The position numbers were made by a program, and so were the translations under genes. Source: a virus. From it: a stretch of 49,299 nt of DNA. This document shows positions 892-49,299 of this stretch, piece by piece. The notes under the pieces were generated by a model that was given only the letters and a program-made list of their open reading frames with translations, was not told the origin of the DNA and did no database searches. The stretch is from positions 1 through 49,299 of the IMG/VR virus record IMGVR_UViG_3300005253_000258; one strand, written 5' to 3'. Numbering within the stretch: position 1 is the stretch's first letter; every line of letters begins with the position of its first letter.

Positions 892-1491
892 ATGGGAGCA
901 CCCAGGGATGGTGGGTTAACGCCAAAAGAGCAAGCATTCAGTCTTAACTACTTCAAGACGAATGGGAAGAGGCCTGGACTATCTGCTATGCTAGCGGGGT
1001 ATCCGTCGAAGAGTGCTGGTGCTCATGCCACGGAGATTTTACAGAGGCAGAGGGTAAAGGACTATCTGAGGAAACTATGGGAAGCTGCTGAGAGTCCCAT
1101 AGTTATGTCGGTCAGGGAGAGGAAAGAGAAGCTATCTTTGATAGCCCGGGGTATGGTAGGCGATTGCGTAGATGAAGGGGGCAACATAGACTGGGGTGCC
1201 GTAAAGGAGATGCCGGCGGTAAAGGAAGTCACCATTGAGGAGAGAGATATTGGTGAGGCAACATTACGGACAATCAGGGTAAAGTTACTCAATCCGGTAG
1301 AATCCATTCATGAGTTGAATCTTATGGAGAAGTTATACCGGACTAATGAGCAATCGGTGAACATCAACCCGACCTACAATTATTTTGTAACTGATGGCAC
1401 AGTGGTTGAAAAACTTGGTCGGATAGGTGAGAGGACTCAGAAAGAAATTGCCCTTACTGGGGGAAAGGTAGAAGAGGGAGAAAGACTATGA
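892..1491 (+). CDS. terS: Terminase small subunit
   Basis: This 199-residue protein looks like a small terminase of the Terminase_2 type, which binds phage DNA and directs it to the packaging motor. The N-terminal part (residues about 10-65) has the family pattern: LTPKEQAF, a helix, then MLAGYPSKSAG, and a leucine-rich helix ending in VKDYLRKL. The middle is a helical oligomerisation region and the tail is charged. It is followed within 400 bases by the large terminase, as expected. The stop overlaps the next small ORF by ATGA. The ribosome site AAGGGG lies about 10 bases before the ATG. The second module has an unrelated-looking counterpart at 43345. Confidence 0.85.
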   Translation: MGAPRDGGLTPKEQAFSLNYFKTNGKRPGLSAMLAGYPSKSAGAHATEILQRQRVKDYLRKLWEAAESPIVMSVRERKEKLSLIARGMVGDCVDEGGNIDWGAVKEMPAVKEVTIEERDIGEATLRTIRVKLLNPVESIHELNLMEKLYRTNEQSVNINPTYNYFVTDGTVVEKLGRIGERTQKEIALTGGKVEEGERL

Positions 1492-3137: not shown

Positions 3138-3147
3138 GGGAGTGTCT

Positions 3148-4902
3148 ATGACTACTTTGGCTACAACATCATTGGACAAAACTAAAAACCGTATGACAGA
3201 ACTAAAATCTCTGCATGACCGGATGGATAGGACAAGGGATAGAGTCTACAACACCCCCTATGTGATGCCTGACCTGGCAGACCCAACGCATAAGATGGAT
3301 AATGTCATCAGTGTGACTATGCCCTATGGTGCTATCATAGCGAATACCGTTATCAATGACCTGATGACCTCTTTCCGACAGACTATCGTTAGCGGTAGTA
3401 TCTCGGCAAAAACTCAGAGACTTATTGAGGGGTTCATTGATGATAATCGGGAAGAGGCAGATGAGAGGTTAGCTAATAGTAATTGGCATGCTACCCTTTT
3501 TGAGATTTGGTGTAGTCATGTCTGCATCCGAAGTTATATCGGTGTCCGGTGGGTATCTCAGATTATAGACGGCAAGTATGTCATAGATGTTAAGCCGATT
3601 GATATGCGTTACGCCCCTTGGGAGTATGGGAATGATGGGTTAAACTGGATGGCTCCCATTAGCTTCCGCACAAGGGCAGAACTTGAGGCTCAGTATGCTG
3701 AGGTAATCAAAGAAAAGAAGGTTAGCCTAAGTGGTGAAAGCACTCAGCTTTTTGAGGTCAGGGATTACTGGGACTCTGCAAAGAAAGAACTATGGATTAA
3801 CAAAGTTCTTGCTCTGGAGCAGAAGAACCCACTTGGCGAAGTGCCTTTTGTTATTGGAGCGCCGGCTACGGGTTTTATGCTCAGAGATGAAAAATACATT
3901 GAACATGATGCTGAGGATATACTTTATCTCATCAGGGGCGTTCTTGATGAGATGAACAGAACGGCATCCATAGAGCAAACAAAGGGTGCTGAGACAATCA
4001 GGCCACCCTATGAGCAACTAACAGATAAGGTACCTGATAGCTCGCCAGCGGACGCACCACCCACGACAAGCCAGACGAAAAAGGCTCAGAAGGATTTAGG
4101 ATGGAAGCTACTACAGACTCCTGACATCAATAATGCTTTTCTCACTGGCCGTGCTGACCTAGCCAAAGTATTGCAGATGGGTGGCGTTAATGATATTGAC
4201 CTTGGTAATGTCAGCCAGACGGTATCGGCCGTCTGGATTACGGCTCAAGCAGGTATAAGAAAGAAGTTCAGTGGGCCACGACTGAAGGCGATTACCCAAG
4301 GAGACCAGCAGCTAGCCAGGATGATGATAAGGCAGACACAAAATGCTGTTGAACTTGAGGAAGGTTCGCCTGATATAGTTGTTGGTGGTATGGGTAGAAA
4401 GAGAACGTACGCGGCTGATAAGCTAGGTGACCCGAAACAGTACGCTATAAGAATTGAGCTAAGGTCACAGAGCAAGACTGAAGAGATAGCTAACCTTGTC
4501 CAGTTCGAATCGGCACCTGACTTACCGTATGAATGGAGATTGGAACACATACTTGGGGCAAATGACCCCAGAGAGATAATCAGGATGAAGGCTAATGAAG
4601 ATGCTTTAGAATTAGACCCTGCTCAAAAGTTCGCTGATTTAGGCCTAAAGCTGGCGAGGGAAGCCGAAGAATCACAGGACGAACAAGAAAAAGATGTTTT
4701 GAATTTGCGTTCTATGATGAATATAGAAAGAGCAGTTACTATACTCAAGCAGAGACTTCAGCCAGCACCACTACCAGAAGGGGAACCCAAGCTGAAGCCA
4801 TCCCCCAAGGGTAGCCCACGGCCTCTTGTGGATATGCCGAGTCTATTAGGTCCCGGTGACCAAGCACTCCCGAGACAGCAAGAAGAGGTTCCAGCCGTAT
4901 GA
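3148..4902 (+). CDS. Portal protein
   Basis: This protein of about 584 residues is the predicted portal, the dodecameric ring at one capsid vertex through which DNA enters and leaves. It follows the large terminase and shares blocks with the second portal at 46552: ILYLIRGV followed by an EQT segment, DIDLGNVSQ and the proline-rich tail APLPEGEPK. The C-terminal part is helical and the last 60 residues are proline-rich and probably disordered. A GTG at 3142 is in frame, but it directly abuts the ribosome site AAGGGAG, so ATG 3148 with normal spacing is the better start. The stop overlaps the HNH gene by ATGA. Confidence 0.85.
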   Translation: MTTLATTSLDKTKNRMTELKSLHDRMDRTRDRVYNTPYVMPDLADPTHKMDNVISVTMPYGAIIANTVINDLMTSFRQTIVSGSISAKTQRLIEGFIDDNREEADERLANSNWHATLFEIWCSHVCIRSYIGVRWVSQIIDGKYVIDVKPIDMRYAPWEYGNDGLNWMAPISFRTRAELEAQYAEVIKEKKVSLSGESTQLFEVRDYWDSAKKELWINKVLALEQKNPLGEVPFVIGAPATGFMLRDEKYIEHDAEDILYLIRGVLDEMNRTASIEQTKGAETIRPPYEQLTDKVPDSSPADAPPTTSQTKKAQKDLGWKLLQTPDINNAFLTGRADLAKVLQMGGVNDIDLGNVSQTVSAVWITAQAGIRKKFSGPRLKAITQGDQQLARMMIRQTQNAVELEEGSPDIVVGGMGRKRTYAADKLGDPKQYAIRIELRSQSKTEEIANLVQFESAPDLPYEWRLEHILGANDPREIIRMKANEDALELDPAQKFADLGLKLAREAEESQDEQEKDVLNLRSMMNIERAVTILKQRLQPAPLPEGEPKLKPSPKGSPRPLVDMPSLLGPGDQALPRQQEEVPAV

Positions 4903-5453: not shown

Positions 5454-5641
5454 TGCCGACAAAGTGGTCTGTTAATAAAGCCATTGAATCTCTACGGACT
5501 CTAACTAACCCATTCGAGAAAGCAGGTATTCAGAACCCTGCCCAGAAACCAAAGCTATCTGAGGTTATTGACGAGGTGGCGGTTAGCGGAAATCGTGAGG
5601 AGTTAAATGGTTCAAGCCGAAAAGAAAATACAACTCCCTGA
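5450..5641 (+). CDS. 63-residue protein before giant gene
   Basis: This small frame starts within the HNH stop (ATGATG) and runs 35 bases into the giant gene. It is hydrophilic, with an N-terminal helix (NKAIESLRTL). No family is recognised. In the second module a 41-residue frame holds the same place (48863), also beginning with a proline-lysine motif (MPPK here versus MMPTK), so the pair may be positional counterparts. Sequence similarity is weak. Confidence 0.5.
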   Translation: MMPTKWSVNKAIESLRTLTNPFEKAGIQNPAQKPKLSEVIDEVAVSGNREELNGSSRKENTTP

Positions 5642-8600
5642 AGAAGAGCAAATCAAGAAGCTAGTTACTAAGGCAGAAATCGGCCCTCTCGAAGAGAGAA
5701 CTTTTGCCACCGACCTCCAGTTAGAGATGCTGCGTGAGGCTCGTGATGCAGGAACTCTCTCTCAGAAGACTATAACTACTCCTATCTTCCTCACTCCCTC
5801 TCAGGCTACTCGATTGGATTTTGATATAGAAGAGGGTGAGTTTATTAGGATAGAACCTAGTGCGGTAGGGGAAGAGGCTACTTTTAGTCTTGTTACTCCT
5901 GAAGGTATAATGGAACCTCAGCCCCTTGCTCTGCCAGAACCTCAACTCTTTCCTTTGACTGAAGTTCCTCCTGTTGAAGCACTCCAGTCATTATTCCCAG
6001 AGAGGTTTGAGGCTGGTGAAACGCCTCAGATGGTCTTTGAATCACTAGGGGTTCTAGTCCAACAGCAACCTGTAGAATTGCTCGAGCAACTTGTTGCTAA
6101 GGGCAGGACTCCTGAAGTTGAGCTATTGATAAATACCTACTTCGATGTCCAACCTGGAGATATCGACAGGCTCTTTGCGGAAATGCCTGATGCAGAAGCT
6201 AGGTTATTCCGGGAAGCCCTGCCCCTGTTGATTACTGACAGAAATAAAGACGCTATGCTCACTTACTTCTTTGAGAACCCTGAAGCATTAAGAAGGAACT
6301 TGATAGGAGTTGGAAGGAACTCTAGTACGGTAGCCCTTGTAAAATCACTGTACCCAGAGATTACAGACAAGGGTATGAGTCAGTATTTTAATCCTAGAGT
6401 ACCCGGGACAGTTGAGGGTGTTGACCCTACTGCTCTGGGTGCGTTACCTACTAAAACTTGGCTCGATAAAGTCAAGGAGGTTATAGAAGACCCGTTACAA
6501 CTGATTCCCTTTGTCGCTAGTGGTGCGGAGATAGTTGAGTTAGGGCGGTTAATGAAAACCGCTAAGGACTTAGAAGATGGGAAAGAAGTTAGCGAGGAAG
6601 ATTTATTAGCTCTTAAAGCGTATGTTGCCCGAGCCACCATGGATACGACCTGGGGCTTCGAGGTAGCCGATGTAATAGCCCAGATAGTTCCTTTCGCTGG
6701 AGAGTTTATTGCAACTGGTGGCATATTCTCTGCCGGCAAAACAGCGGCCGCAAAAGCTGGAGAGCAGGCTCTAAAAAGAATAGCCACCAGAACAGGCCTT
6801 AGAATCCTAGAGGGAAGGCTGGCTAAGTTTGCGGCGAGAGAAGTAATCCCAACAATAGTCGGTGGTACTCTGAGAGCGCCAGTAGCAGGTGTTACTAGAA
6901 TACCAGCAGCTACCTTAGAGAAACAATTACAGGCAACCCTTACTGGAGATGAGGAATCGGTTTTTGAGAGTGCCGTAAAAGCGTTTGGTGAACAATGGGT
7001 TGAGGTAGTCAGCGAAAGCACCGGTGGTTTATTCGCTCCATTAGCTGCCTCCATCAAAGGTCAACTGATAAAGGCGGGATTGTTCAGGGCTTTTATTAAA
7101 GCTAATCCAGGCAAAAGCCCTAACGTTCTAAGAAGAGTTTTTGAGAAGGCAGGCTATAACGGTGTTATAGGAGAGATGCTGGAAGAAAGGGTGGCTGATG
7201 TCGGACACGGTATTTTAGAACCTCTGGGGTTAAGTGACCAGAAGTTCAGTATCCCCTCTGTTAGACAGTTGACAGTAGAACTGGCAGCCTTCTCTGTTCC
7301 CGGGGCTGCTGCCTTAGCGATACAAAAAACACCGGCACTATTCGAGAAGTTATCCCCCAAGGTAAAGAAAGCATTAGCCGATGCTGTTGAAGAAGGTAGG
7401 GCAAGACCTGAGCGTGGTGCAGTTGAGATACCTGGGGAAAGACCTGAAGGTGAAGCGCCTTTAACTGAGGCACTCATCACTGATGCCGAAAGCATAGTTG
7501 CCCAAGCTGAGACAGTAGCTCCTGATAATGCTCAAGTCAAAGAGATGAGAAGGCTGGTTGATGAGGCGAAGGTTCAAACAGGGGATACCCAGAGAAAAAC
7601 TCTTATCAAGATTGAGGCTGTTGAGGATGAGGTAAGAGAAATTGCTGGAGTACCTAAAGTTGGAGAGCCTGTGGTAGAAGTAACTATTCCTAAACTTATA
7701 TCGGACCCTAGTGGGACAGTAGCACAAGCACGACCTACAGCTGATTTCTTCCCTGAGATAAAACCCACAACCAAGTTACCAGTTGAAACAGAATTAAGAG
7801 TAACTATAAAGGCTGTGGGAGAAAGGCAAACATCATTTTGGGCACAGGTGCATTCAAGGGGTGTAAGGTCTAATACATATCTTAGGATAGATAAAGAAAG
7901 TGTTCTTGTAGGCAAGGAAACGGCAGAGGGCACTGAACTTGCTGGGGAACTTGTTTTCCATGGGGCAATTGTTAGGGAGCAGTTGGCGAGGCAAAATGTA
8001 TTATTAGGCGAATTACAAGTAGTAAAAATTAAACCCCAACCCCCAGTAACCCCTGAAGAGGTAGCCAGACCCGAACCTGGTGCCCCTGAAGCTGGCATAC
8101 AGCCTTCGATGATTGAGGGTATCCCTGCTGAGGAGGTCAGACCTCCAGGTAAGGGCAAGATACTCCAGGTTTCAATGGATGACCAGCTAAAACTTCAACA
8201 GGCCAGGCAAGCCGCCGAGGAAGCGCCTCCTGAAGTGAAAGAGGCTTACAATACTCAGGCAGAGATAGAGGGGTTGAAGGTCACTCACCAAATGGACCCG
8301 GTGGCACAGAAGCGTGTCTTTATCGGCAAGGACAAGCGGGGAAGAGACCAGTATAGAGGATTGGATTTCTTCATCTCTCTGAAAGAGCAGTCCTTGCCTG
8401 AATACTTTACCATCAAACAGGCCAAGATGCTGAACCCTGCCCTTATTGTAGATTTATACACTCAGCCAGGCACTCCCCAATTTAATAAAGTCCCCAGGGA
8501 TGTAGCCCTTGACCAGATGACCAAAGAGTTTAATATGACCCCCGATGAGATAGCTGACAGGGTTATGGGTATCCGCCAAGAGAATCGGAGAATTAAAGAA

Positions 8601-11600
8601 CTTGAGGTCACTATCAAGAAGCAGATGGTCGAGACTCCATTACCTGCTGTAACTGCACTAACTACCGAAGAGGTCACTGAGAACTGGGAGACCGTAGCTC
8701 AACCGAAACTAACACTGAAGCAGGCTCAAGCCTTGTCTGGTATTATGGCTGACTATGTTATCAGTGAAAATACCATAGCCGCTTTTGAGGCTCAAAGAGC
8801 GCTGTGGAGTAGAACAAGAACTGGGCGAGGAGAAGATTTCAAGGCCAGGATGCAAGACCTCATTGTTGTTCAAGGGGTCGGAGTAGAGGAAGCCTTTAGG
8901 CTGGCTTCTAACGAGACACTAGCCGGTAAATTACCAGTGGTGCTAACCGACTTCTTTGAGGGTATGACTACTGAGATGAGGTCAGCTTTCTTCACAGTGG
9001 TATTCCATAATAAACAGCTGCAAGAGTATCCTTATGAGATGGCATCTACGATTACAGCTCTCACTAATGCACTAGACGGTAAGCCGATACCTAGAAAAAG
9101 AGGAAGGGGCAGCATCCTATTTCCTGAAGGTGGTTCTGCCTGGGATAGGCTGAACTTTGTCTTCGGTAAGCAGCCGAAGGTTCTCAAAGCAATCGAGAAG
9201 ATGGCTGATGAGAGAAAGCCACTTAGGGATACGGTAGAAGGGATATTCCACGAAACAGGGCGTGAGCCTATTCCTATTGACCAGGAGGCTGCTGATTATC
9301 TGAGAGGATTACAAGATATTCCGCAAGGCTATACAACTTTAGTTGAACCTGAGCTTGGCTTCCCTACCTATTCTAATTTGAAAAATCCTGCTGACCTTCA
9401 GTTCGCTCAAGCAGAGTTAGAATTAGGGCGACAGTTAGTTGACGGCGAAATTACCATAGACCAATTTGAGCTAGCACGAAGAGAAGCCAGGGATAAGGCA
9501 TATCCCTTACCACCTGTCACAAAGTATGACCCACCCATTGATAAGGCTTTCAAGATACCGCCAATGTTCAACTTTATGGAACAGAGTATGTTCAATAGGG
9601 TGCTGAAACAGATTCTAATGTCACCCTTAGACATAGGTAACTTTCTGAGAGCTAACAAAGCCAGTTTCGACCAATCTTTTCTGAGGCAATCTCAGCTATT
9701 ACTATCGGGACACCCCATACTGGCTTGGCAAGCTCACGCCGCTGCCTGGCAGTCGATGTTTAGCCAGAAGCATACCGAGGCAGAGTGGGAACTGATAACG
9801 AGAGACCCAGACTTTCAGATATACGAGCAGATTAGAGTAGATACTGGGCATGACCCTCTTCGTGTGCCAGCCTTTGCCGCAAAAAAGGGGACTGAACAAT
9901 ACAGAACATCTGAGGAGTTTGGTTTTACCAGGCAAGATGTAGAAAGGGCAATACCGAGATTTACAGCATGGTTGCCTCATGTGAGGTTGTCTGAGAGGGG
10001 TTTTTCCGCTGGAACCAATAAGGGTGTTTGGGGTACATGGAAGCAAAAACTTGCATGGTCAAGAAGATATTCTGAGAAGATAGCATCTGGTGATGTAGTT
10101 CTTAAAGAAGGTGAGGCATTTGATATAATTCAGGAGATGACTGATGAACAGTCTATGCTTGGTGACCTGATTCAGAGAGCCAATCTTCGTATAGCTTCAG
10201 GTTTAGCTCCTGCTATGAACGCCTTTTTCTTTGCGGCCAGGTCAAAGGTTGGTAGACTCTTGCTACCGAAACACCTGCTTGGGATAAGTGTTCGTAACAA
10301 GAAAGTGAGGTTCAACCCCCGTGTAATGAGGGAGGCATGGAAGGACTTCTTCCTGTGGACTTCTTACATTAGTGGTATCATGTTTCTGGGTGATTGGCTG
10401 GATTTGTGGGAACTTGAAACAGACCCCCGTAATGCTGAGGTTATGAGTGCCAGGATTGGTAAAACGAGGATTGACCCCTGGGCTGGCTACCGGCAGTTTG
10501 TAGTCTTATATGCTCGGCTCATTACTGGAACTGGCATATCATCGGTAACTGGGGCTGAATATGATGTTGACCCGATAAGGGCACAGGAAACTTTTGGAAG
10601 GAGTTCTATCTCACCACTGGCAAGCATCTTGCTAGAGTTCTGGACAGGTCGGAACTTCCTCGGTCAAGTAATAGATTATGATGATTCTAAATACTGGCTT
10701 GAGAAGATAACGCCATTTGCCATCAATGATATCTGGGAAGCTGCTAAGGAGGATTGGCGTATGGGGATAGCGGTTACTATTCCAGCCGTTTATGGCGAAG
10801 GCGTACAGACCTACACCGGGGATTGGGAAGAGAACTTTACCAAGCTGGGCTTACCAAAGTATATCGAGAATACTGCCTATGACCTGAGTGAGCCATACTA
10901 CGACACCGCTGATTTCTGGTCTGATACGGCCAAACAATTCAAGGGGGTTGACCCCGAGACTTTAACGCCAGCAAAGGGATTTCCACCTTATATAAAGGCA
11001 ATCGCTGAGGCCAGAGTTAGCAATGAACACCTTGCTACCTTACCTAGTGATACATTGGTTAGTCTAAATGCCGACCCTAACCTTGACGAGCCTACCTTCG
11101 GTCAGTATTATCAGATGTGGCGAGACAGACAGGCTCTCGTAGCTGCTGGTGAAGAGGCTGAAATAACAATAGAGGGCGAGACATTCAAGGGAGAGGATGC
11201 TGTTGAAGCCTTCGACAAAGATGAAAGGACAAAGAACTCCCACCGCGGTAACTTCTCCCAAAGGCAGTTCTCTTTACTCAATGAATACTGGTCAATTACC
11301 AATGAGAAGAAGCAAGTTGAGTTCCTTGAAGAGCATAAGTCTGAGATAGGGGTGAAGCCTAGAGATGCCTTCCTGCGCTCACACCCCAAGGAAAATGCTG
11401 AATTGGCTATCTGGGGACAGGCTAAGGTGCTGACCAAGGAAGCCTATGACCACTTCAAGACCCTAGCCAAGAAGTATGACATACCGGACAACGCAGTACC
11501 AGAGCTCCTACTGCCACCTGAGACTTCGATAGATACTCACTTCGACTATGAAGAGATGGTATCTGAGGGGACTCATTCTAGTAATGAGGCAAAGTTACTC

Positions 11601-13073
11601 TTACTCAAAGACCAGATAGCGGCCGATGAAGCTAAGGTGAAGTCGTATGTGACTTGGAGGAATGAATCGGGCCAGCCACTTCAACTCCCCAAAGAGCAAG
11701 TTGAATACTACCAACTGAAGGTAGATAACAGCCAAAACTATGATGACCTTGCAGAAGCTCAGGAAGCTGACGATGAAGAAGATGTAGAGGAAATCAGGGC
11801 AAGGAAGGTAGATGGTGAGACATTCCTTGATGTGGAACGCCGGGTAGATGCGATGGGAAAGGGTACTAGGGAAGTCCCGATTGACCCAGAACTGGTCAAC
11901 TCCTATGTCAGCCATATGAGAATAGGTGATGAGACGAGCCCTAATAGTGCCGAGTCAAAACTCAATCGGTACGATAACAACGAGCTCAATGACTTCCTGA
12001 TGAATGAAGACTACTGGGGGAAGCAGAAAGCCCAAGCATTAGATAAGAATAAGTTCTATCTTGATAATTACCTGGTGCCGAGATGGCGAATAGATGTTGC
12101 TTACCAAGAGCAGGATGAAGATTACAATGCCCTTCAGACAATGCAGAAGAGGCAACAGTACTTATTAGATAATGAAGACTACCGTATGGATAGGCGGCGC
12201 CGTGAAGCCCTGACGACGACTGATATCCAGACCGGTAAAAGATTCCCACTTGACCAGATTGAAAACTTTGTCAGCTATCACGAAATAGATGTTAAGGGCA
12301 AGAGACAGGAGAGATTCCTTGTGAATAACCCCACCTTTGCTGATGCTATGCACAATATAGTGGGCATAGATATACCAAGACCAGAGGATGTTCCAGCCAT
12401 TCAGTATGATGATATTTACGACCAGTGGACAGACGAGTTCGAGCAACTTGAGGGGTTCGCTGATAATCAATCTGAACACTACATAGAGATTCCTGAAATA
12501 GGACTAACATTAGACCAGACACGTGAGAAAGCCAGAGATGCGATACGGTTTGATGATGAAGGTAAGTACACCGAGTTCGGGTTGGATGAGCTTAGGCGCA
12601 ATGCCTACGGCAAGTTTGTGCCAGAAACCTTGGTCAGCAATTATGTCGGGTACTACACCATTATTGGTGAGGGTAAGCCTGATAACTACGAAGATGTCAA
12701 TAAGACTGACCTATGGTATGACGATGACTGGTTCTTGAGGGAAAACATTGAGTTTTACGAGCAGGTGTATAAAGGGATACTGGAGAATGAGAAAAGGGAC
12801 TTCAGCAAAGTACCCTCTAGGGAAATATTCAGTAAGTATCTTGAGTATCTCCAGATAGATGCCAGGCAAGCCAAGTTAAGAGATGACTTCAGGTGGGACA
12901 ATCTTGACCTGGATGACTGGTTGGTTCTCAAGTTTGACTATACACCGGTGACCGAGAAAAGGCGTAGGGCAGCACAAACCCCCAGAGAAAAACTAGCTGA
13001 ATCTATCGAAGAGCTTGAAAGAAGATTAAGAGAACGCCCAGAGGAAGAGCCCGCAATTACTTTTCGCCCTTAG
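5607..13073 (+). CDS. Giant virion-associated protein, LPD38-like
   Basis: This 2488-residue protein fills the place between portal and scaffold where phages often keep MuF-type or internal proteins. The N-terminal 400 residues are acidic and hydrophobic by turns. Residues about 350-620 hold small-residue hydrophobic stretches (IAQIVPFAGEFIATGG) that could be membrane-active. Residues about 1320-1720 resemble the large polyvalent protein-associated domain LPD38, including LLSGHPILAWQAHAAAW, a FFWxSYISGIMFLGD-like hydrophobic helix near 1580 and TRIDPWAGYRQFVVLYARL near 1620. The rest is charged and helical. No helicase, protease or lysozyme motif was found. LPD-type proteins are thought to be packaged and injected; here that is inference. 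GAGGAG precedes the start. Confidence 0.7.
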   Translation: MVQAEKKIQLPEEEQIKKLVTKAEIGPLEERTFATDLQLEMLREARDAGTLSQKTITTPIFLTPSQATRLDFDIEEGEFIRIEPSAVGEEATFSLVTPEGIMEPQPLALPEPQLFPLTEVPPVEALQSLFPERFEAGETPQMVFESLGVLVQQQPVELLEQLVAKGRTPEVELLINTYFDVQPGDIDRLFAEMPDAEARLFREALPLLITDRNKDAMLTYFFENPEALRRNLIGVGRNSSTVALVKSLYPEITDKGMSQYFNPRVPGTVEGVDPTALGALPTKTWLDKVKEVIEDPLQLIPFVASGAEIVELGRLMKTAKDLEDGKEVSEEDLLALKAYVARATMDTTWGFEVADVIAQIVPFAGEFIATGGIFSAGKTAAAKAGEQALKRIATRTGLRILEGRLAKFAAREVIPTIVGGTLRAPVAGVTRIPAATLEKQLQATLTGDEESVFESAVKAFGEQWVEVVSESTGGLFAPLAASIKGQLIKAGLFRAFIKANPGKSPNVLRRVFEKAGYNGVIGEMLEERVADVGHGILEPLGLSDQKFSIPSVRQLTVELAAFSVPGAAALAIQKTPALFEKLSPKVKKALADAVEEGRARPERGAVEIPGERPEGEAPLTEALITDAESIVAQAETVAPDNAQVKEMRRLVDEAKVQTGDTQRKTLIKIEAVEDEVREIAGVPKVGEPVVEVTIPKLISDPSGTVAQARPTADFFPEIKPTTKLPVETELRVTIKAVGERQTSFWAQVHSRGVRSNTYLRIDKESVLVGKETAEGTELAGELVFHGAIVREQLARQNVLLGELQVVKIKPQPPVTPEEVARPEPGAPEAGIQPSMIEGIPAEEVRPPGKGKILQVSMDDQLKLQQARQAAEEAPPEVKEAYNTQAEIEGLKVTHQMDPVAQKRVFIGKDKRGRDQYRGLDFFISLKEQSLPEYFTIKQAKMLNPALIVDLYTQPGTPQFNKVPRDVALDQMTKEFNMTPDEIADRVMGIRQENRRIKELEVTIKKQMVETPLPAVTALTTEEVTENWETVAQPKLTLKQAQALSGIMADYVISENTIAAFEAQRALWSRTRTGRGEDFKARMQDLIVVQGVGVEEAFRLASNETLAGKLPVVLTDFFEGMTTEMRSAFFTVVFHNKQLQEYPYEMASTITALTNALDGKPIPRKRGRGSILFPEGGSAWDRLNFVFGKQPKVLKAIEKMADERKPLRDTVEGIFHETGREPIPIDQEAADYLRGLQDIPQGYTTLVEPELGFPTYSNLKNPADLQFAQAELELGRQLVDGEITIDQFELARREARDKAYPLPPVTKYDPPIDKAFKIPPMFNFMEQSMFNRVLKQILMSPLDIGNFLRANKASFDQSFLRQSQLLLSGHPILAWQAHAAAWQSMFSQKHTEAEWELITRDPDFQIYEQIRVDTGHDPLRVPAFAAKKGTEQYRTSEEFGFTRQDVERAIPRFTAWLPHVRLSERGFSAGTNKGVWGTWKQKLAWSRRYSEKIASGDVVLKEGEAFDIIQEMTDEQSMLGDLIQRANLRIASGLAPAMNAFFFAARSKVGRLLLPKHLLGISVRNKKVRFNPRVMREAWKDFFLWTSYISGIMFLGDWLDLWELETDPRNAEVMSARIGKTRIDPWAGYRQFVVLYARLITGTGISSVTGAEYDVDPIRAQETFGRSSISPLASILLEFWTGRNFLGQVIDYDDSKYWLEKITPFAINDIWEAAKEDWRMGIAVTIPAVYGEGVQTYTGDWEENFTKLGLPKYIENTAYDLSEPYYDTADFWSDTAKQFKGVDPETLTPAKGFPPYIKAIAEARVSNEHLATLPSDTLVSLNADPNLDEPTFGQYYQMWRDRQALVAAGEEAEITIEGETFKGEDAVEAFDKDERTKNSHRGNFSQRQFSLLNEYWSITNEKKQVEFLEEHKSEIGVKPRDAFLRSHPKENAELAIWGQAKVLTKEAYDHFKTLAKKYDIPDNAVPELLLPPETSIDTHFDYEEMVSEGTHSSNEAKLLLLKDQIAADEAKVKSYVTWRNESGQPLQLPKEQVEYYQLKVDNSQNYDDLAEAQEADDEEDVEEIRARKVDGETFLDVERRVDAMGKGTREVPIDPELVNSYVSHMRIGDETSPNSAESKLNRYDNNELNDFLMNEDYWGKQKAQALDKNKFYLDNYLVPRWRIDVAYQEQDEDYNALQTMQKRQQYLLDNEDYRMDRRRREALTTTDIQTGKRFPLDQIENFVSYHEIDVKGKRQERFLVNNPTFADAMHNIVGIDIPRPEDVPAIQYDDIYDQWTDEFEQLEGFADNQSEHYIEIPEIGLTLDQTREKARDAIRFDDEGKYTEFGLDELRRNAYGKFVPETLVSNYVGYYTIIGEGKPDNYEDVNKTDLWYDDDWFLRENIEFYEQVYKGILENEKRDFSKVPSREIFSKYLEYLQIDARQAKLRDDFRWDNLDLDDWLVLKFDYTPVTEKRRRAAQTPREKLAESIEELERRLRERPEEEPAITFRP

Positions 13074-13894: not shown

Positions 13895-14902
13895 ATGGCG
13901 ACTGAACTAGGAACTAAATTTCTAACCCTTGCTGATTGGGCAAAAAGGGTTAACCCGGATGGCGGTATTGCTGATGTCATTGAACAGATTGCCGAAACTA
14001 ATCCGTTACTCCAAGATGCCAGTATGATTGAGGGCAACCTACCCACCGGGCATCGAAGCACCCAGAGAACTACTCAACCCTCCGGCACATGGCGCCAACT
14101 GAACGCCGGTGTCGCTGAAACCAAAAGCACGACTCGTCAGGTTGATGACCAAGCAGGTATGCTTGAGGCTTATTCAGCAGTTGATGTAAAGCTGGCGAGA
14201 CTAAACGGCAATATCAATGCTTTCAGGGCATCAGAAGATGCCGCCTTTATTCAGGGCCTCGGCGAAGATGCCACGGATGCAATAATCTATGGCAACTCTG
14301 GGGTCAACCCGGAGCAACCTCATGGACTAGCTCCAAGGTACAACTCACTGACGGATACCGTAGGTACTACTAATGTTATAAACGCAGGCGGTTCCGGTAG
14401 TGATAATTCTTCACTTTGGCTGGTTACATGGGGAGCTAAAACAACTACTCTTATCCACCCGAAAGCCTCCCCAATGGGTTTGCAGGCAACAGACCTTGGT
14501 GAGCTACCTTGGGATGACGCAAGTAACAATCCTTACCAGGCTTATGTGACCCATTTCTCATGGGACTTAGGGCTGTCCGTACCGGATTACCGGTACAATG
14601 TGCGGATCTGCAACATCGACATTTCAGAACTGACCGCCGATGGAGCTACCGGTGCCGACCTGATGCTCAGGATGGTCTCCGCTTTCTATGCGAGGCCAAC
14701 TGCTGGCGTTATTGCTGGCATGACCAGTGTGATATGGTATTGCAACAAGACTATTGGAGAATATCTGCATCACCAGGCTTCCAATAAGTCCAATGTAAAC
14801 CTGACGCTGGAGAATCCTGCTGGCGAGCCGATGGTGAGATTCCTGGGCGCTCCAGTCCACATAGTCGATGCTCTCACTGAGGCTGAAGCAACCATTTCCT
14901 AA
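13895..14902 (+). CDS. Major capsid protein, BPP-1 Bbp17/GP7-like
   Basis: This 335-residue protein forms the capsid shell. It matches a recognisable group of HK97-fold capsid proteins (GP7 type, including Bbp17 of Bordetella phage BPP-1). Family landmarks are DASMIEGNLPTGHRST near residue 42, WRQLNAGV, the STTRQVDDQAGMLEAYS stretch, RASEDAAFIQ, IIYGNSGVNPEQPHGLAPRY and DLGLSVPDYRYNVRICNID. The next gene is the matching cement protein, which supports the call. Start ATG has GCGAGG upstream. Confidence 0.9.
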   Translation: MATELGTKFLTLADWAKRVNPDGGIADVIEQIAETNPLLQDASMIEGNLPTGHRSTQRTTQPSGTWRQLNAGVAETKSTTRQVDDQAGMLEAYSAVDVKLARLNGNINAFRASEDAAFIQGLGEDATDAIIYGNSGVNPEQPHGLAPRYNSLTDTVGTTNVINAGGSGSDNSSLWLVTWGAKTTTLIHPKASPMGLQATDLGELPWDDASNNPYQAYVTHFSWDLGLSVPDYRYNVRICNIDISELTADGATGADLMLRMVSAFYARPTAGVIAGMTSVIWYCNKTIGEYLHHQASNKSNVNLTLENPAGEPMVRFLGAPVHIVDALTEAEATIS

Positions 14903-40097: not shown

Positions 40098-40355
40098 ATG
40101 GTAGAAACTCCACATTACACCACAGACACACCCCAAGCCGCATACCTCATCCAAGCTGGTTTTAACTTACTTAAAATCATCTATGAGACCAAGCCCAACA
40201 GCAAACGGCAGGCAACTTTTGTCTTTGACGCATCTAATCTTAAGCTTCAAGAATGTGTCAATCTCTACAATCAAGGCAAGGCAGTAATCAACCTCGCTCT
40301 CTATGAGCATACCAGGTCAGGGTTGTTAGACCGCATAATGAGAGGGTTGCCGTAA
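40098..40355 (+). CDS. DUF5659-like small protein
   Basis: This 85-residue protein ([20 protein letters not shown], then [20 protein letters not shown] and [16 protein letters not shown]) has the layout of phage-encoded DUF5659-like proteins: an alpha/beta unit with a TFVF strand and a final helix. Function is unknown. The stop overlaps the HNH start (TAATG). Confidence 0.55.
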
Positions 40356-40933
40356 TGCCTAAGATTGGAGACATAAAATACGGCAGAGAACTCCACTACA
40401 AAAGCCTATCCACAAAGTATATCTGGCACGCCTGTATAGATTGTGGGAAGGGACGATGGGTCGTAATAATTACAAACCGCCCAGTTAGATTAAAGTGTCG
40501 GTCTTGCAGCAAGAAAGGGAAGTATCATCCATCAGGTGATGAAAGCCCAAACTGGAAAGGCGGTAAGTATCTTACACACGGTTATGTCCGTATCTTGCTC
40601 CGTCCTGATAACTTTTTCTATTCTATGGCTGACACAGATGGTTATGTTCTTGAACATAGGCTTGTCATGGCGAAACATCTTGGCAGATGTCTCCAAGATT
40701 GGGAGAAAGTCCATCACAAAGGGATGAGACACACTGGGATTGAAAATAAACAAGACAATTTAGAAGATAACCTAGAGATGAGCAGTAGCTTGGGGGAGCA
40801 TAGTGCGAACCACAGCAAAGGTTACAAAGATGGTTACGCCAAAGGCTTGATTGACGGCAGAAACAAACAAATCCTAAATCTCAAAGAAGAATTACGCATC
40901 CTCCGGCAGCAGATTCAATGGGGTGAGGACTAA
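40355..40933 (+). CDS. HNH homing endonuclease, family A copy 3
   Basis: This 192-residue protein is a close relative of the HNH genes at 4899, 17568 and 48276: zinc ribbon ([14 protein letters not shown]), [31 protein letters not shown] and a HH core (VHHKGM). It has [14 protein letters not shown] and a coiled-coil end. Both ends overlap the neighbours as TAATG, so it sits exactly between two genes. Confidence 0.9.
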
Positions 40934-41835
40934 TGCCAAGAGAACTAACCACAGCAGTAGTTAAGGAATGGTTAAACTTGGTTGAGGGTGTGTTTGACAT
41001 ACGGGAGTTACACGCTGATGTAGGGATTGATTCACCCGCAGGGAAGAGCCATCTCCGCGTAATATTACATCGCATGGAACATGATAGCCCACCGCTTGTT
41101 GTCAGTTTAGGTAGTGGTAAGTATCGTAAAATAGACAACGAAAAAACCTTAATGGACTGGGAATCTGCCGACCCTGACAACTGGCTACCGATATTTTTAC
41201 CTTTCGACCTCCATGCCCATTGCCTCATTTACCCTAAGTCAATTATCATTGTTGTAAGCGGTAAGGATGGAGGTAAGACGGCATTTTTATTAGAGTGTCT
41301 TAAACTCAACTATTCAGGTTTCACTACTGATTTTTTCAATAGTGAAACAGGAAAGGAACAATTTAAGAAGCGGGTTACCCCTCTTAATTTCCCACATCCG
41401 GCGCCTTTTAATGTTTATCAGCGCTATGATAATTTCGCTGATGTTATTGAGCCGAACCACTTGTCAATTATAGACTACTTAGATTTCAATTCTGAGGTTT
41501 ACTTGGTGGGTACTGAAATTGATAACATTTTCCGTAAGCTGACTACCGGCGTAGCTATTATCGGCATCCAGAAGCCACCACCATCGGTTACCTTTGTTAA
41601 AGGGGTTAAGAAAGTTATAGACAGGGACTTGGGTTATGGCGGAGCGTTCACTATTAAGAGGTCGGTACTGTATGTCTCTCTATCAGGTAATAGATTAAAG
41701 GTTGTTTCTGCTAAAACGCCTAGCGACCCAAAAGTGCGGTTAACTAATATGCAGTGGCGGTATACTTTTGACGATGACGGCTTCTTTACTGACATCCAGC
41801 GTTACTATGGGGAGGAGCAGACTAATCCTGTTTGA
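40933..41835 (+). CDS. RecA-fold ATPase, replication-type
   Basis: This 300-residue protein has an N-terminal winged-helix-like part (residues 1-65), then a RecA-like core: Walker A GKDGGKTA (110-117), Walker B LSIIDYLDF (177-185, D181) and a sensor-type Q at 213 (IGIQKPPP). The layout resembles phage ATPases that act as helicase, helicase loader or DnaB-like factor. No DNA polymerase or primase is in the window. Which of these roles applies is unknown. Confidence 0.68.
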   Translation: MPRELTTAVVKEWLNLVEGVFDIRELHADVGIDSPAGKSHLRVILHRMEHDSPPLVVSLGSGKYRKIDNEKTLMDWESADPDNWLPIFLPFDLHAHCLIYPKSIIIVVSGKDGGKTAFLLECLKLNYSGFTTDFFNSETGKEQFKKRVTPLNFPHPAPFNVYQRYDNFADVIEPNHLSIIDYLDFNSEVYLVGTEIDNIFRKLTTGVAIIGIQKPPPSVTFVKGVKKVIDRDLGYGGAFTIKRSVLYVSLSGNRLKVVSAKTPSDPKVRLTNMQWRYTFDDDGFFTDIQRYYGEEQTNPV

Positions 41836-43163: not shown

Positions 43164-43267
43164 AAGTAGAAGTAGAAAAGAAGAAGAATTAACAAGTAGA
43201 AGTAGAAGTAGGTAATGTTACTATGATAGTTACTGGAAATACCATAGATAGTTACAGCGATAGTTAC
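43164..43267. repeat. Iteron-like repeats
   Basis: AAGTAG-type direct repeats (43164-43175 two units, 43194-43211 three units) are followed by GATAGTTAC at 43225, 43247 and 43259 and a near copy TAATGTTAC at 43213. Spacings of 12, 22 and 12 bases give two similar pairs. Such arrays bind initiators or repressors. The stretch 43039-43332 holds no gene. Confidence 0.6.
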
Positions 43268-43306
43268 AAATAAGGGTAATCTCTAATCCTTTTTACCTAC
43301 CGGTAC

Positions 43307-43337
43307 TTGACAATGCCCTGTCTCTTTATGATATGAT
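43307..43337 (+). promoter_or_regulatory. Promoter of second packaging module
   Basis: TTGACA (43307-43312) and TATGAT (43332-43337) are present but the spacer is 19 bases; another TATGAT at 43327 would give 14. Seven bases after the second TATGAT is ATG 43345. Hence a leaderless message is likely, but the spacer is not ideal. Confidence 0.5.
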
Positions 43338-43344
43338 TGTCTCA

Positions 43345-43776
43345 ATGGAAACTGCAGAGCAACCCTTTAGACCAGAGAAGGTTCGTACCAAAACAGGCCG
43401 TCTTATGAGTCCCAGTTCTCTCGCTAACCTCAAACCCTATAAGCCTGGTGAGAATGGACATGGTAGGGTCTATCCTCTAAAAGAAAGGTTACAACACGCC
43501 CTCGATAAACCCTTAGTCGTGCCAGAACTAGATGCCCCAGCCGGTGACCATATTGTTTATAAGACCATTAAAGGGGCCATTGACCTTGTGCCGGTAGCTT
43601 TTAAGGAGACTTGGGATAGGACAGAGGGGAAGATGGCAGGTGGAGGTGAGGCAGGCGGGACTGTAAATATAATTACAGAAAAGGTGGTTATAGATGCTCG
43701 AAGCAAGCTCTCTGGCACACTCATTGGCATTGCTACCCGACTCAGAGAGGCAGAAGAAACTCGACAGCCTGAGTGA
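43345..43776 (+). CDS. terS: Putative terminase small subunit, second module
   Basis: The protein (METAEQPFRPEKVRTKTGRL, then SLANLKPYKPGENGHGRVYP and LKERLQHALD) has the position and the basic N-terminal DNA-binding tail of a small terminase; it resembles small phage proteins of the DUF5681 type. It is unlike the small terminase at 892. ATG 43333 is in frame but lies inside the -10; ATG 43345 is preferred. It overlaps the large terminase by 83 bases. Confidence 0.6.
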   Translation: METAEQPFRPEKVRTKTGRLMSPSSLANLKPYKPGENGHGRVYPLKERLQHALDKPLVVPELDAPAGDHIVYKTIKGAIDLVPVAFKETWDRTEGKMAGGGEAGGTVNIITEKVVIDARSKLSGTLIGIATRLREAEETRQPE

Positions 43777-45034
43777 CGAAGAAACATTAGCTATTTTATA
43801 TGACTGGAAGGGAACTTGGGCAAGAAAGAACCAACTACCCCCTACTGAGGATTGGTTTATCTGGTTATTACTATCTGGAAGAGGGTTTGGGAAGACCAGA
43901 ATAGGGGCTGAGATGGTGAGGAAGTGGGCAAAGGCAGGGTTTACCCCAATAGCTTTAATAGGACAGACAAAAGCTGATGTTAGAGACACAATGATTGAAG
44001 TTGGGGAGAGTGCGATATTAAATATAAGCCCACCTGACTTTATGCCTGTCTACGAGCCAACCAAACGAAGATTAACTTGGCCTAACGGGGTTCAAGCTAT
44101 CAGCTACTCCGGGGATGAGCCGGACCAGCTAAGAGGTCCGCAACACATGAAGATATGGGCTGACGAGGTGGCTAAGTTTATGTATCCTCAACGGACCTGG
44201 GACAATCTTATGCTAGGGTTGAGGATAGGGGGAAACCCGCAAGTGATTGTTACTACTACTCCTCGCCCCCTCACCTTACTTAGGGAATTAGTCTCAAATA
44301 AGCGGTGTGTCGTCACTAGAGGGCATACACTAGATAATAAACTCAATCTAGCCCCTGAGTTCCTGAAATATGTTATGTCTATGTATGAAGGAACAAAGCT
44401 AGGTAGGCAAGAGTTAGCCGGTGAGCTACTGGAGCAGATGGAGGGGTTAGTCTACGATGCTTTCAAGCCCAGCACGTGTATTATTCCCAGGTTTGCTTTA
44501 CCAGACAAGTGGCCTAGATACTTTGGCCAGGACTTTGGGGCGGTAAACACAGCTGCGGTATGGTATGCCCTTGACCCTGATACCGGGTTTCTTTACTTAT
44601 ACCGAACTTACAAGGCAAAGGCTAGTGTTTTGGAGCACGCTCAGAAGTTTAAGGAGTTAAGCGAGGGGGAACAGATACTCAGGAAGGTAGGAGGCAATCA
44701 TCAGGAGCAAGAGGCCAGGGATGGTTATTCGTTGGCTGGCTGGTTTATAGCCGAGCCAAAACACAGCAACGACCGAATGGAACGAATAAGAAGGGTCAAC
44801 TCACTCCACTGCCAGAACAAAATCTACATCTTTAGTGACTTACACGATTATATTGATGAGAAGTTGTCCTTCAGCTATGAGATAGACAGAGAGGACAGGT
44901 TACAGGACAAGATATACAATGAGGCTATGTATCACTTTATGTCTGCAGAGGGATATTTGCTCAGCGAGTTCCACCCCGACGTGGTAGGGGTTGGGGCTAA
45001 ACCAAGAGTAAAATTAAGCAAGTGGCGTTATTAG
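43694..45034 (+). CDS. terL: Terminase large subunit, second module (Terminase_6-like)
   Basis: This 446-residue packaging motor has Walker A SGRGFGKT (61-68), Walker B KIWADEVA (153-160), the TTTP coupling motif (187-190) and the nuclease start YFGQDFGAVNTAAVW (D280). This layout fits Terminase_6-type enzymes (COG5323). The first module uses a Terminase_3-like enzyme, so the two are not simple duplicates. AAGGTGG before the ATG agrees with the start. Confidence 0.92.
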   Translation: MLEASSLAHSLALLPDSERQKKLDSLSDEETLAILYDWKGTWARKNQLPPTEDWFIWLLLSGRGFGKTRIGAEMVRKWAKAGFTPIALIGQTKADVRDTMIEVGESAILNISPPDFMPVYEPTKRRLTWPNGVQAISYSGDEPDQLRGPQHMKIWADEVAKFMYPQRTWDNLMLGLRIGGNPQVIVTTTPRPLTLLRELVSNKRCVVTRGHTLDNKLNLAPEFLKYVMSMYEGTKLGRQELAGELLEQMEGLVYDAFKPSTCIIPRFALPDKWPRYFGQDFGAVNTAAVWYALDPDTGFLYLYRTYKAKASVLEHAQKFKELSEGEQILRKVGGNHQEQEARDGYSLAGWFIAEPKHSNDRMERIRRVNSLHCQNKIYIFSDLHDYIDEKLSFSYEIDREDRLQDKIYNEAMYHFMSAEGYLLSEFHPDVVGVGAKPRVKLSKWRY

Positions 45035-45043
45035 GGAGAGGAA

Positions 45044-46555
45044 ATGAAAGTTCTCTTAATAGTTCCCACTCATAATTACAGTATAGAATACCCTAGTTTC
45101 CTGTCGTTTAGTGACTTCCCTTCAGGGTATGGGTATCTTACTTCTGCTCTTAGGGAAGCAGGACACGAGGTATTTGGATGTAACCCGAACAATGTGATGG
45201 GATATGTTAATGCTTATCAGATGATACAAGACGTTATCAGCAAGCGTATAATGGACGTAGAGCCCGACTTAATCGGATTAGGGGGGTTATGCACTGATTA
45301 CGGGTTCTTGAAGGATGCTATTGGGATAATCAGGAATACTACAGAGTCTCCAATAGTCTTAGGTGGTCAGATAGTAACCAATGATGCTGAGTTTATCTTT
45401 AACGATTTAAAACCTAACTATGCTATAGTAGGGGAGGCAGAGGAAGCGATGGTTAGTCTAGCTAATGGTGATGGTTGGTCTTCGGGCTTGATTAAAATAC
45501 CCTATGAGGATTATAGACCTATTGATAAACTCCCCTTCCCTGACTATGAGCCATTTGATATTAAAGAAATGATGGAAGAGTATTCAATGGCAACGAGGGT
45601 TTTATACAGGTATTCCAGGCCTAATCCTAGACCGTATAATATAGTCGCTTCTAGGAGTTGTCCTTTTGAGTGTACCTTTTGTGTTCACGAAAGAAGGGGT
45701 ATTCCGTACCGAGCTAGGTCGATAGAGAATGTAATGGAAGAGATACAGATTAGTTATGATAAGTATCACTTTAACGTTTTGATTATACTAGACGAGTTGT
45801 TTGGAAATAAAAAGAGGCTAGTAGAGTTCTCCAGCGGAGTTTTAGAAGGAATGGATAGGTATGGGTGGGACTTTGACTGGATGTTTCAGACACACGCCAA
45901 TGCTAAGTTTGACTTAGAGTCCCTTAAATTAGCTAAGAAAGCAGGATGCTATTTATTCTCCTATGGTTTAGAGAGTGCCTCACCGACAGTATTAAAGAGT
46001 ATGAACAAGAAGATGAACATATCACAGGTTGTTGATGTAATCAAGATGGCAGAAGAAGCAGGGATAGGGTTTGCTGCTAATTTAATCTTTGGAGACATAG
46101 CTGAAACACCTGATACAGTAGCCGAGTCTTTAGCCTTCTGGTTTGAGTATGGAAGAAAATCTGACATATTTCTAGGTGAAGTCAAGCCATATCCTGGAAG
46201 CAAGCTATTTGAGGGAATGTTCTCCGACAAGAAAAGTTACTATGAGAATATAAACAGCTTTCAAATAAATATGACTACTATGCCGGACGATGTTTATTTT
46301 ACGATGATAAGACTGATAGGAACTTTAGAGCATTCCTGGTTATTTGTTCAGAGTGCTTCCAACCCTCATTTTAAAAAGATGAACACAAATGGGCTGTATA
46401 AAGAATATACAGGGAAAGACTACTACGAGATTGGGGGCAACTGTCCTTATTGTGGAGAAAAGATTGATTATTGTGAACTAGTCAAGTCTGTTCCCTTCTG
46501 GTTAGGGACAGGGTGCACTTCTTGTAACAGAAAGATAAGATTGGAGGTAAGATGA
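45044..46555 (+). CDS. B12-binding-type radical SAM enzyme
   Basis: This 503-residue protein has an N-terminal Rossmann B12-binding-like domain (residues 1-165; VEPDLIGLGGL, then IVLGGQIV, AIVGEAEEA), but no DxHxxG. The radical SAM core has the cluster motif C206-x3-C210-x2-C213 (SRSCPFECTFCVHE), a Gly-rich SAM stretch and FSYGLESASPTVLKSMNKKM. A C-terminal zinc ribbon (CPYCGEK, CTSCNRK) ends it. Such enzymes do methylations, ring closures or thiolations on small molecules, RNA or proteins. Here it lies between large terminase and portal, with nine bases and a ribosome site ahead and an ATGA-type overlap after it. Substrate is unknown. Confidence 0.9.
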   Translation: MKVLLIVPTHNYSIEYPSFLSFSDFPSGYGYLTSALREAGHEVFGCNPNNVMGYVNAYQMIQDVISKRIMDVEPDLIGLGGLCTDYGFLKDAIGIIRNTTESPIVLGGQIVTNDAEFIFNDLKPNYAIVGEAEEAMVSLANGDGWSSGLIKIPYEDYRPIDKLPFPDYEPFDIKEMMEEYSMATRVLYRYSRPNPRPYNIVASRSCPFECTFCVHERRGIPYRARSIENVMEEIQISYDKYHFNVLIILDELFGNKKRLVEFSSGVLEGMDRYGWDFDWMFQTHANAKFDLESLKLAKKAGCYLFSYGLESASPTVLKSMNKKMNISQVVDVIKMAEEAGIGFAANLIFGDIAETPDTVAESLAFWFEYGRKSDIFLGEVKPYPGSKLFEGMFSDKKSYYENINSFQINMTTMPDDVYFTMIRLIGTLEHSWLFVQSASNPHFKKMNTNGLYKEYTGKDYYEIGGNCPYCGEKIDYCELVKSVPFWLGTGCTSCNRKIRLEVR

Positions 46556-48279
46556 TGCCAAATTATTTTGAATTGGTAAAGGAATGGGAGCTAGAACATT
46601 CCGAACTTGATAAGAGGTATCAGACAGATGCCGATTTACTTTATCTTGGCCAGTATATAATGAGAAGTCCACCTGATATTGATGGGGTGAGACACGCTAT
46701 ACCGGGGATAGTAAATGCTACCCTTAACAGCCCTGCGGTATATGGCCGGCAGGTTGTAGCTGCTTTGGGGGCAGTAAAGCAGCAGGTTATCGTGGAAAGT
46801 GACGATGAGGGTTTTGACACGCACGAGGTAGAGGAGTTTCAGGATGCTGCCTTTGATGGGGCTAATGCCAGGCTAAGAAGGAAACGGTTGCCGTTATTAA
46901 ACCCGTTTGCTGATGCTCAATTCTGTTTCAGGGGCAGGACAGGAAGGCGGATTTTATTCAGAGAAGAGAACGGAGTTTTAATCCCCGACATTATGCCCTT
47001 AGACGGGAGGTATATCCGTTACAAGATGGGGGAGGAGGATTTGGATTGGTACGGTTATTCAACCAAGCGGACTAAAAGTGAGATAGAAGGCGAATACGGT
47101 ATTGTAATTGACGGCAAGATGGGGTCAGTCCTTGATGTTTGGGACAAAGAACACAATGAGGTATGGATTGATGGAAAACATGTAATTGTAACTAAGAATG
47201 GGAAGGAAAGAAAAGAAAAACACAATTACGGATATGTTCCTATGGTATTAGGGATAGTCCCGTTAGGTTATGGGGATATGTTATTGGATGAAGACCGTCT
47301 GAAGAATGAAGGTGAATCCATATTTTACCTGATTAGAGGTATTGTTCCTCAACTTAATATGGTGATTAGCATAGGGCAGACACTGAATTTTCTATCGGTA
47401 AAGAGACCCATACAGTATGAAAGCAAAGATGGGCAGAAAGAGTCTCCTAATTATGATGAGGTAATGAGTCCTGGCTCGACAGTGGAAGCTGAAATAGGGG
47501 GCGGTATCAAGCCAATAGACTTCGGGGATGCCATTGGTGCGTTTGACCGTGTTTATAATATGCTGGAGAAGGCAAGGCAGGAAGGTAGTTATACTGACAT
47601 TGATATTGGGAATGTTCGGCAACCTTTCTCAGCGGTGGCTCTGATTGAAATCGGGGAGGGAAGAAACCAGCCTCTTTTACCAATACTGGCAGCCAAGGAA
47701 GGGCTGAACATTGATTCTGCCGAGATGATTACACGGCAGGTCATACAGATAGGCGGGACAGTAGAGTTGGGTGTCCCTGGGCATAAAAGGGATTTCGGCA
47801 CAAGTAAGTTAAAGGGGGAATATACCACAGACTACAAGTATTTTATTAAATCTCCCAAGATTGATATAGCTAGAATTTCAATGGCGGGACAGGCTAAAGA
47901 GTGGTATCCTAGAAGACACATTTACGAAGAGACATTGCAAGTGGAAGACCCTGATGGGATGTTACAGGAATGGTATTCTGATTTGGCAGAGGTTGTAGAT
48001 CCTAATGTTCTGAAACTCAGGATTGTCTTGGGTTTGTTAGCTAAGGCAGATGACGGGGATGAGGATGCTGAAATGGAAGCCTTCGTAATGGCTCAAGGTA
48101 TGAATATAAGTATAGAGCAAATCAAAGCAGGAATTATTCCCGAACCGCCTCCACTACCACAAGGAGAACCAGCCGTGCCTCTGTTACCAGAAGGAGGGAG
48201 AGTAGGAGGTCAGATACCATCTTCAGCGAAAAAGGCAAGTGATTTAAGCAGAACACCAAAAGAGATGGGGGCACTATGA
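46552..48279 (+). CDS. Portal protein, second module
   Basis: This 575-residue protein is homologous to the first portal: IFYLIRGIVPQLNMVISIGQ matches ILYLIRGV with its EQT, DIDIGNVRQPFSAVALIEIG matches DIDLGNVSQTVSAVWITA, and the tail PPPLPQGEPAVP matches APLPEGEPK. The N-terminal helix, a barrel core and a C-terminal clip follow the usual plan. The start is ATG 46552 or 46555, overlapping the radical SAM gene. The stop overlaps the HNH gene by ATGA. Confidence 0.88.
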   Translation: MMPNYFELVKEWELEHSELDKRYQTDADLLYLGQYIMRSPPDIDGVRHAIPGIVNATLNSPAVYGRQVVAALGAVKQQVIVESDDEGFDTHEVEEFQDAAFDGANARLRRKRLPLLNPFADAQFCFRGRTGRRILFREENGVLIPDIMPLDGRYIRYKMGEEDLDWYGYSTKRTKSEIEGEYGIVIDGKMGSVLDVWDKEHNEVWIDGKHVIVTKNGKERKEKHNYGYVPMVLGIVPLGYGDMLLDEDRLKNEGESIFYLIRGIVPQLNMVISIGQTLNFLSVKRPIQYESKDGQKESPNYDEVMSPGSTVEAEIGGGIKPIDFGDAIGAFDRVYNMLEKARQEGSYTDIDIGNVRQPFSAVALIEIGEGRNQPLLPILAAKEGLNIDSAEMITRQVIQIGGTVELGVPGHKRDFGTSKLKGEYTTDYKYFIKSPKIDIARISMAGQAKEWYPRRHIYEETLQVEDPDGMLQEWYSDLAEVVDPNVLKLRIVLGLLAKADDGDEDAEMEAFVMAQGMNISIEQIKAGIIPEPPPLPQGEPAVPLLPEGGRVGGQIPSSAKKASDLSRTPKEMGAL

Positions 48280-48863
48280 AGTTATCGGAAGAAGAGATTA
48301 GAAGAAGAGTAGTGGAGCGTGGTCTTGTGAGGTCAGATACTGTGCTAAAAGGGGGAAGAGGTTACGCTATATTGGTAACCTGTCCGTATTGTGGGGAGAA
48401 GCGATGGAGTAGGTATACATTGAAGTCGGATAAACCTAGAAGTGAGACTTGCCTAAAGTGTGTTTCTACTAAACATAGGGGTTTCACCGGCAGGCAAAGA
48501 CAGAAAAATGGTTATATACTGATAAGAGTATACCCCGAAGACTTTTTCTTTCCAATGACAAAGAGTGATGGATATGTCTATGAGCATAGACTTGTTATGG
48601 CGAAGCATCTTGGCAGGAATCTTCACAGGTGGGAATTAGTTCATCACAAGAAAGGAGTAGCCAAAGATGATAACCGTATAAGGGGGCTTCAGCTTGTCTC
48701 GGAAGATAGACATAACCAAATTACCCTTTTGGATAATAGAATAACGTGGTTAGAGAATAAAGTTGGGGAACAAACTAAGCTAATCAAGTTACAATCTTGG
48801 CAAATCAAAGAACTCAATAAGAAAGCTGGTGAATTAACGCAGCAACCAAGGGAGGAAATATAA
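48276..48863 (+). CDS. HNH homing endonuclease, family A copy 4
   Basis: This 195-residue protein has the family A layout: zinc ribbon (CPYCGEKRWS, CLKC), [37 protein letters not shown] and DNRIRGLQLV, then a coiled coil. It starts by ATGA overlap with the portal stop, as copy 1 (4899) does in the first module, so both sit at the same junction. It ends by TAATG overlap with the next gene. Confidence 0.9.
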   Translation: MKLSEEEIRRRVVERGLVRSDTVLKGGRGYAILVTCPYCGEKRWSRYTLKSDKPRSETCLKCVSTKHRGFTGRQRQKNGYILIRVYPEDFFFPMTKSDGYVYEHRLVMAKHLGRNLHRWELVHHKKGVAKDDNRIRGLQLVSEDRHNQITLLDNRITWLENKVGEQTKLIKLQSWQIKELNKKAGELTQQPREEI

Positions 48864-48988
48864 TGCCACCTAAGAGGTTTTTCACTAAAGAGAAGTTTTT
48901 CGCTGATTTACAGACTCAATTCAGTAATAAACCGATAACAATTGGAGATAAGATAAGGCAGGCATTACAGAGGCGAAAACCAAAATAA
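48863..48988 (+). CDS. 41-residue protein before giant gene
   Basis: This small frame (MPPKRFFTKEKFFADLQTQF, then ITIGDKIRQALQRRKPK) holds the same place as the 63-residue protein at 5450 in the first module. The start overlaps the HNH stop and GGAGG lies ahead. It is basic and helical. The pair may be positional counterparts; sequence similarity is weak. Confidence 0.5.
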   Translation: MPPKRFFTKEKFFADLQTQFSNKPITIGDKIRQALQRRKPK

Positions 48989-48989
48989 G

Positions 48990-49299
48990 ATGGCTACCAA
49001 AGCAAAAAGATTAATTAGAAAAATTAGGGGCGAACCTGAATTTGAACGCCCTGAAGAACCCACCCCATCTAGCATAAGGCGAGAGGCTCTACTTAAAAAG
49101 GTTGAAGCTGAACCCTTTGATTTGCAAAAAACTATTGGAGAAAACCTGGCCACCCAGACTCAGGTTACTCTTTTAAGGAAATTCCTGGATGAAGGCACTC
49201 TACAAGAAAAAGGTTTTACTAGGGATATATTTCTAACTTCGTCTCAGGCTGCTCAATTGGGTTATGATGTTGATCCTGGTGAATTAATAAGGCTTGAAC
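48990..49299 (+). CDS. Start of second giant protein (incomplete)
   Basis: The gene begins at ATG 48990 and runs off the window after 103 codons. Residues about 69-102 (LDEGTLQEKGFTRDIFLTSS, then QAAQLGYDVDPGELIRLE) match the start of the first giant protein (DAGTLSQKTITTPIFLTPSQ, then ATRLDFDIEEGEFIRIEP). So this should be a second giant protein related to that at 5607. The rest lies outside the window. Confidence 0.75.
   Translation, partial: MATKAKRLIRKIRGEPEFERPEEPTPSSIRREALLKKVEAEPFDLQKTIGENLATQTQVTLLRKFLDEGTLQEKGFTRDIFLTSSQAAQLGYDVDPGELIRLE

Follow-up and report, generated by a model that had tools for sequence, protein, structure and literature searches.

A second, diverged packaging and portal module in an uncultured phage contig: very probably an assembly overrun joining two strains at one locus

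Introduction

The authors of CheckV described IMG/VR contigs of excessive length in which a single genome recurs, and called them probable assembly artefacts (PMC8116208). In vClean, the large terminase is placed among the genes that are single-copy in more than 99% of the complete tailed-phage genomes holding them, and the duplication of such single-copy genes is treated as a sign of contamination (PMC11704788). The DNA analysed here, hereafter the window, is the entire IMG/VR record IMGVR_UViG_3300005253_000258 (49,299 bp). Like the CheckV cases, it is longer than one unit and enters the same locus twice, and it fits both the CheckV and the vClean patterns except in one respect: its second pass is a diverged allele, with portals only 27% identical, which would escape k-mer repeat checks. 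A further parallel is the mosaic exchange of terminase and portal genes in tailed phages, since in the window, too, different terminase types precede homologous portals and giant proteins, although here the exchange is seen between strains or lineages rather than within one genome. As for named phages, the major capsid protein is about 46% identical to that of the podovirus-type phages phiV10, BPP-1 and Tyrion, whereas the module 2 portal and the giant protein match nothing in named phages.

Results

Gene content of the two modules

The left part of the window runs from a small terminase through a large terminase, a portal, an HNH protein, a small ORF and a giant protein to a scaffold candidate, followed by the capsid, tail genes, an exonuclease and small genes (Table 1). 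At the right end a second set comprises a small-terminase candidate, a large terminase, a B12-binding/radical-SAM protein, a portal, an HNH protein and the start of another giant protein. A first-pass annotation had described both sets as small terminase, large terminase, portal, HNH, small ORF and giant protein; the small ORF has no match in the second set, there being no ORF of 50 aa in the 126 bp that separate the HNH gene from the giant-protein gene in the second set, and the B12-binding/radical-SAM gene had been overlooked. The latter lies between terminase and portal, has no counterpart in the first set, and finds its sole named-phage match in Streptomyces phage SF3 (25% over 42% of its length). 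A protein of this kind is present at the same place in L002 (4605-6436) / G002, with the frame in G002 broken by another small ORF. The small terminase of module 2 (tS2) is so named by its position and its relative in L021. At the other end of the window, about 0.9 kb upstream of the first small terminase (1-890) hold no convincing gene; an Rfam scan gave zero matches, this region included, and a hairpin considered at 283-360 was rejected because it folds no better than shuffled sequences (z -0.85).

Table 1. Positions of the features discussed, with the evidence for each
Feature	Positions	Strand	Evidence
Contig left end	1..24	.	24 bp unlike 22 bp of L001 at same place
Module 1 small terminase (Terminase_2)	892..1491	+	Pfam E 1.2e-10
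Module 1 large terminase (Terminase_3-like)	1854..3089	+	Terminase_3C E 6e-7; phrog_2 E 1e-20
Module 1 portal	3142..4902	+	Position; homology to second portal; portal profile A3
Giant protein, 2,488 aa, between portal and scaffold/capsid	5607..13073	+	ORF
Major capsid protein	13895..14902	+	phrog_212 E 9e-75; 46% to Enterobacter phage Tyrion
Final long gene ahead of fork	40933..41835	+	61% relative upstream of module-2-type terminase in L015
Fork point, 63 bp common to L001 left end	43210..43272	.	Exact match; four GTTAC motifs
Module 2 small-terminase candidate (tS2)	43333..43776	+	62% relative at same position in L021; no family match
Module 2 large terminase (Terminase_6N)	43694..45034	+	Pfam E 3e-17
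B12-binding/radical-SAM protein, 503 aa	45044..46555	+	Pfam E 2.5e-12 and 1.3e-8; below every NCBIfam cut-off
Module 2 portal	46552..48279	+	27% to portal 1; 78% to G002 portal
HNH protein	48276..48863	+	phrog_10730 E 2e-15
Second giant protein, start, cut by contig end	48990..49299	+	First 103 aa; 49% over 51 aa to giant 1

The homology that had been claimed for the portals and for the giant-protein starts is borne out by the alignments (557 aa, E 2e-40, and E 5e-12, respectively), and the PF04860 portal model matches neither portal. The large terminases had been assigned to different families; they do match different Pfam models and give no pairwise BLASTP match, but both match the broad phrog_2 and phrog_5653 and are thus distant members of one superfamily. 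Between the small terminases, similarity is not detectable pairwise. The HNH proteins of the two sets are 45% identical over 119 aa, which is weak evidence for a duplicated module because such genes occur at five places in the window. These five proteins, all of one family (4899-5453, 17568-18158, 34057-34710, 40355-40933 and 48276-48863), are probably homing endonucleases.

The giant protein of module 1 has a variable N-terminal third and a conserved remainder. A search with its alignment found relatives in 21 viral contigs (20 besides L001, described below) and none among named phages; bacterial and archaeal genomes were scanned with the same alignment for a host or prophage, and none was confirmed.

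A fork shared with an independent contig

Apart from one mismatch, positions 25-15245 of the window are reproduced in the independent contig L001 (IMGVR_UViG_3300005663_000726; 15,306 bp). This contig opens with 63 bases that are exactly those at 43210-43272 of the window, and a further 22 bases then lead to window position 25. After these 63 bp, L001 continues into module 1 and the window into module 2, so that one sequence has the two modules as its alternative continuations. The match is exactly 63 bp long, and L001 begins with it; an exact overlap of this length at a contig end is the trace that a branching k-mer (63-mer) would leave in a de Bruijn assembly graph. Exact-DNA scans with the start of module 2 and with the sequence upstream of the fork found no other contig. 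The sequence at the end of the first turn also precedes the contig start in the independent contig, and the unit so defined measures about 43.27 kb (window 25-43272 plus about 22 bp). The first 24 bases of the window differ from L001 62-85 and are perhaps a third variant at the fork.

Composition is neutral between the readings. By tetranucleotide profile, 43273-49299 resembles the remainder of the contig (mean correlation 0.726; within the unit, 0.729), and this measure, like third-position GC, was uninformative as a test of the join, since uniformity is expected for a close sister strain and equally for one genome.

Genome units and terminase types in the relatives

A portal profile run over 19 related records, L001 excluded, found a single portal gene in each of 17 and no portal in the other two, two portals being seen in the window only; many of these records are fragments, and the portal of G025 is in two overlapping pieces. 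The ends of two relatives, G012 (41,406 bp) and G017 (41,344 bp), are exact repeats of 127 and 141 bp, respectively; each relative has one portal and one giant protein, and by virtue of the repeats both resemble complete circular assemblies. The two repeat lengths correspond to typical k-mer sizes. The unit length of the window fits that of these relatives (41.3-41.4 kb), and a circular gene order is also indicated by G022, which begins within the giant protein and ends right after the portal.

Module-2-type genes are found in comparable surroundings. In G002, downstream of a module-2-type portal come a giant protein (52% identical to giant 1) and distal tail genes of its own; module 2 is therefore the ordinary head locus of another phage, continuing there into a full structural set. 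In L015, the relative of the last long gene before the fork is followed by an apparent DNA methyltransferase gene, reverse-strand genes, and then a small and a large terminase, the large one 69% identical to that of module 2. Another example is L011, in which relatives of the exonuclease and Q-like genes lie upstream of a module-2-type terminase (64%). Moreover, L021 pairs a tS2-like small terminase with a large terminase like that of module 1, and L015 a small terminase like that of module 1 with a large one like that of module 2. Judging by these gene pairings, the reshuffling of small and large terminases among these uncultured phages is real biology, and together with the synteny in L015 and L011 it gives the terminase types the look of alternative alleles at a single locus throughout the group.

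A GTTAC cluster upstream of the terminases

Within the 43.27-kb unit, GTTAC motifs are most densely clustered in the 63-bp fork sequence, at a density reached by 12 of 300 shuffles. In L015 (nine motifs in 100 bp) and G022 (six), the small-terminase gene follows the densest cluster at a distance of 143 and 236 bp, respectively, and the density of these clusters was reached by none of 300 shuffles each; in eight other relatives checked, no cluster exceeded three motifs anywhere. Counting GTTAC and GTAAC together, clusters extend over 43217-43262 in the window, 4146-4310 in L015 and 29488-29588 in G022 (L042). In all three lineages, whose terminases differ, the cluster lies a short way before the small-terminase gene, and a putative packaging or regulatory site is a reasonable guess.

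Discussion

The second packaging module is very probably the product of an assembly overrun that joined two strains at one locus, and no single phage need carry both modules. The contig would comprise one full turn of a circularly mapping phage genome and then 6.0 kb of the next; two strains present together would part at the 63 bp that closely precede the terminase genes, one with module 1 (as in L001) and the other with module 2, and the assembler would have followed the module 2 branch on its second pass. The fork, the unit length and the presence of a single module in each of the relatives found are observed; that the branches are two strains, and that the assembler made the join, is what we infer. 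Because the second pass is diverged and not identical to the first, it points to a join of two strains and not to a plain concatemer. Module 2 is real sequence, but most probably it does not belong to the genome of module 1. The first-pass annotation had set terminal redundancy aside because the two copies differ, and there is indeed no long DNA repeat between the two ends of the contig, but a second turn into the allele of another strain had not been considered. Of the three options that it offered (tandem related prophages, a duplicated head module in one phage, or an assembly join), the last is the one retained, now refined to a wrap-around at a strain-variable locus. Three observations speak against the join: the alternative continuation is seen in L001 alone, whose 63-bp end could be the actual error; the composition of 43273-49299 gives no sign of foreign origin; and the difference between the first 24 bp of the window and the 22 bp of L001 is without explanation.

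Tandem related prophages, or phage genomes, in one molecule would make the contig a whole first genome and the start of a second. The uniform composition across the join is compatible with such an arrangement, and the 63 bp found before module 1 in L001 and before module 2 in the window could flank each copy as a shared site. Nevertheless, this arrangement is improbable: the contig has no tRNA and no match to the integrase and resolvase models searched (PF00589 and PF00239), the second phage being incomplete, and no host genes were recognised among the scanned proteins, though most of these match no family. The boundary, moreover, lies at the terminase genes and not beside an integrase, an unusual junction, and the relatives with terminal repeats are separate circles of about 41 kb. 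An arbitrary chimera, in which the module 2 phage shares with this genome only the short 63-bp array, has a slimmer chance still. These 63 bp are all that is proven common to both branches, but homologous upstream genes stand before module-2-type terminases in L015 and L011, suggesting that more of the upstream region is shared; this possibility differs from the join of two strains only in the extent of sharing and leaves the artefact conclusion unchanged. Least credible is a single phage genome with two packaging and portal modules, acquired for example by recombination with a co-infecting relative. The contig as assembled does show both, and small and large terminases of both kinds are reshuffled among the relatives. 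However, no relative tested has more than one portal (two in 0 of 19 records), so that such a genome would stand alone among them; in L001 the 63 bp lead straight to module 1; and module 2 ends within a second giant protein, after which a second structural set would be expected.

With the overrun of two strains as the preferred explanation, over-length viral contigs may join diverged alleles, which are missed by repeat-based checks and exposed by a duplicated large terminase or portal. It is conceivable, if rather doubtful, that the phage population consists of near-identical genomes in which alternative terminase-portal modules of different families are swapped at the GTTAC-repeat array, perhaps the packaging site, and that the strains accordingly differ in DNA packaging. 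The finding also points to packaging-gene reshuffling in a group of uncultured phages whose hallmark is a protein of about 2,500 aa between portal and capsid.
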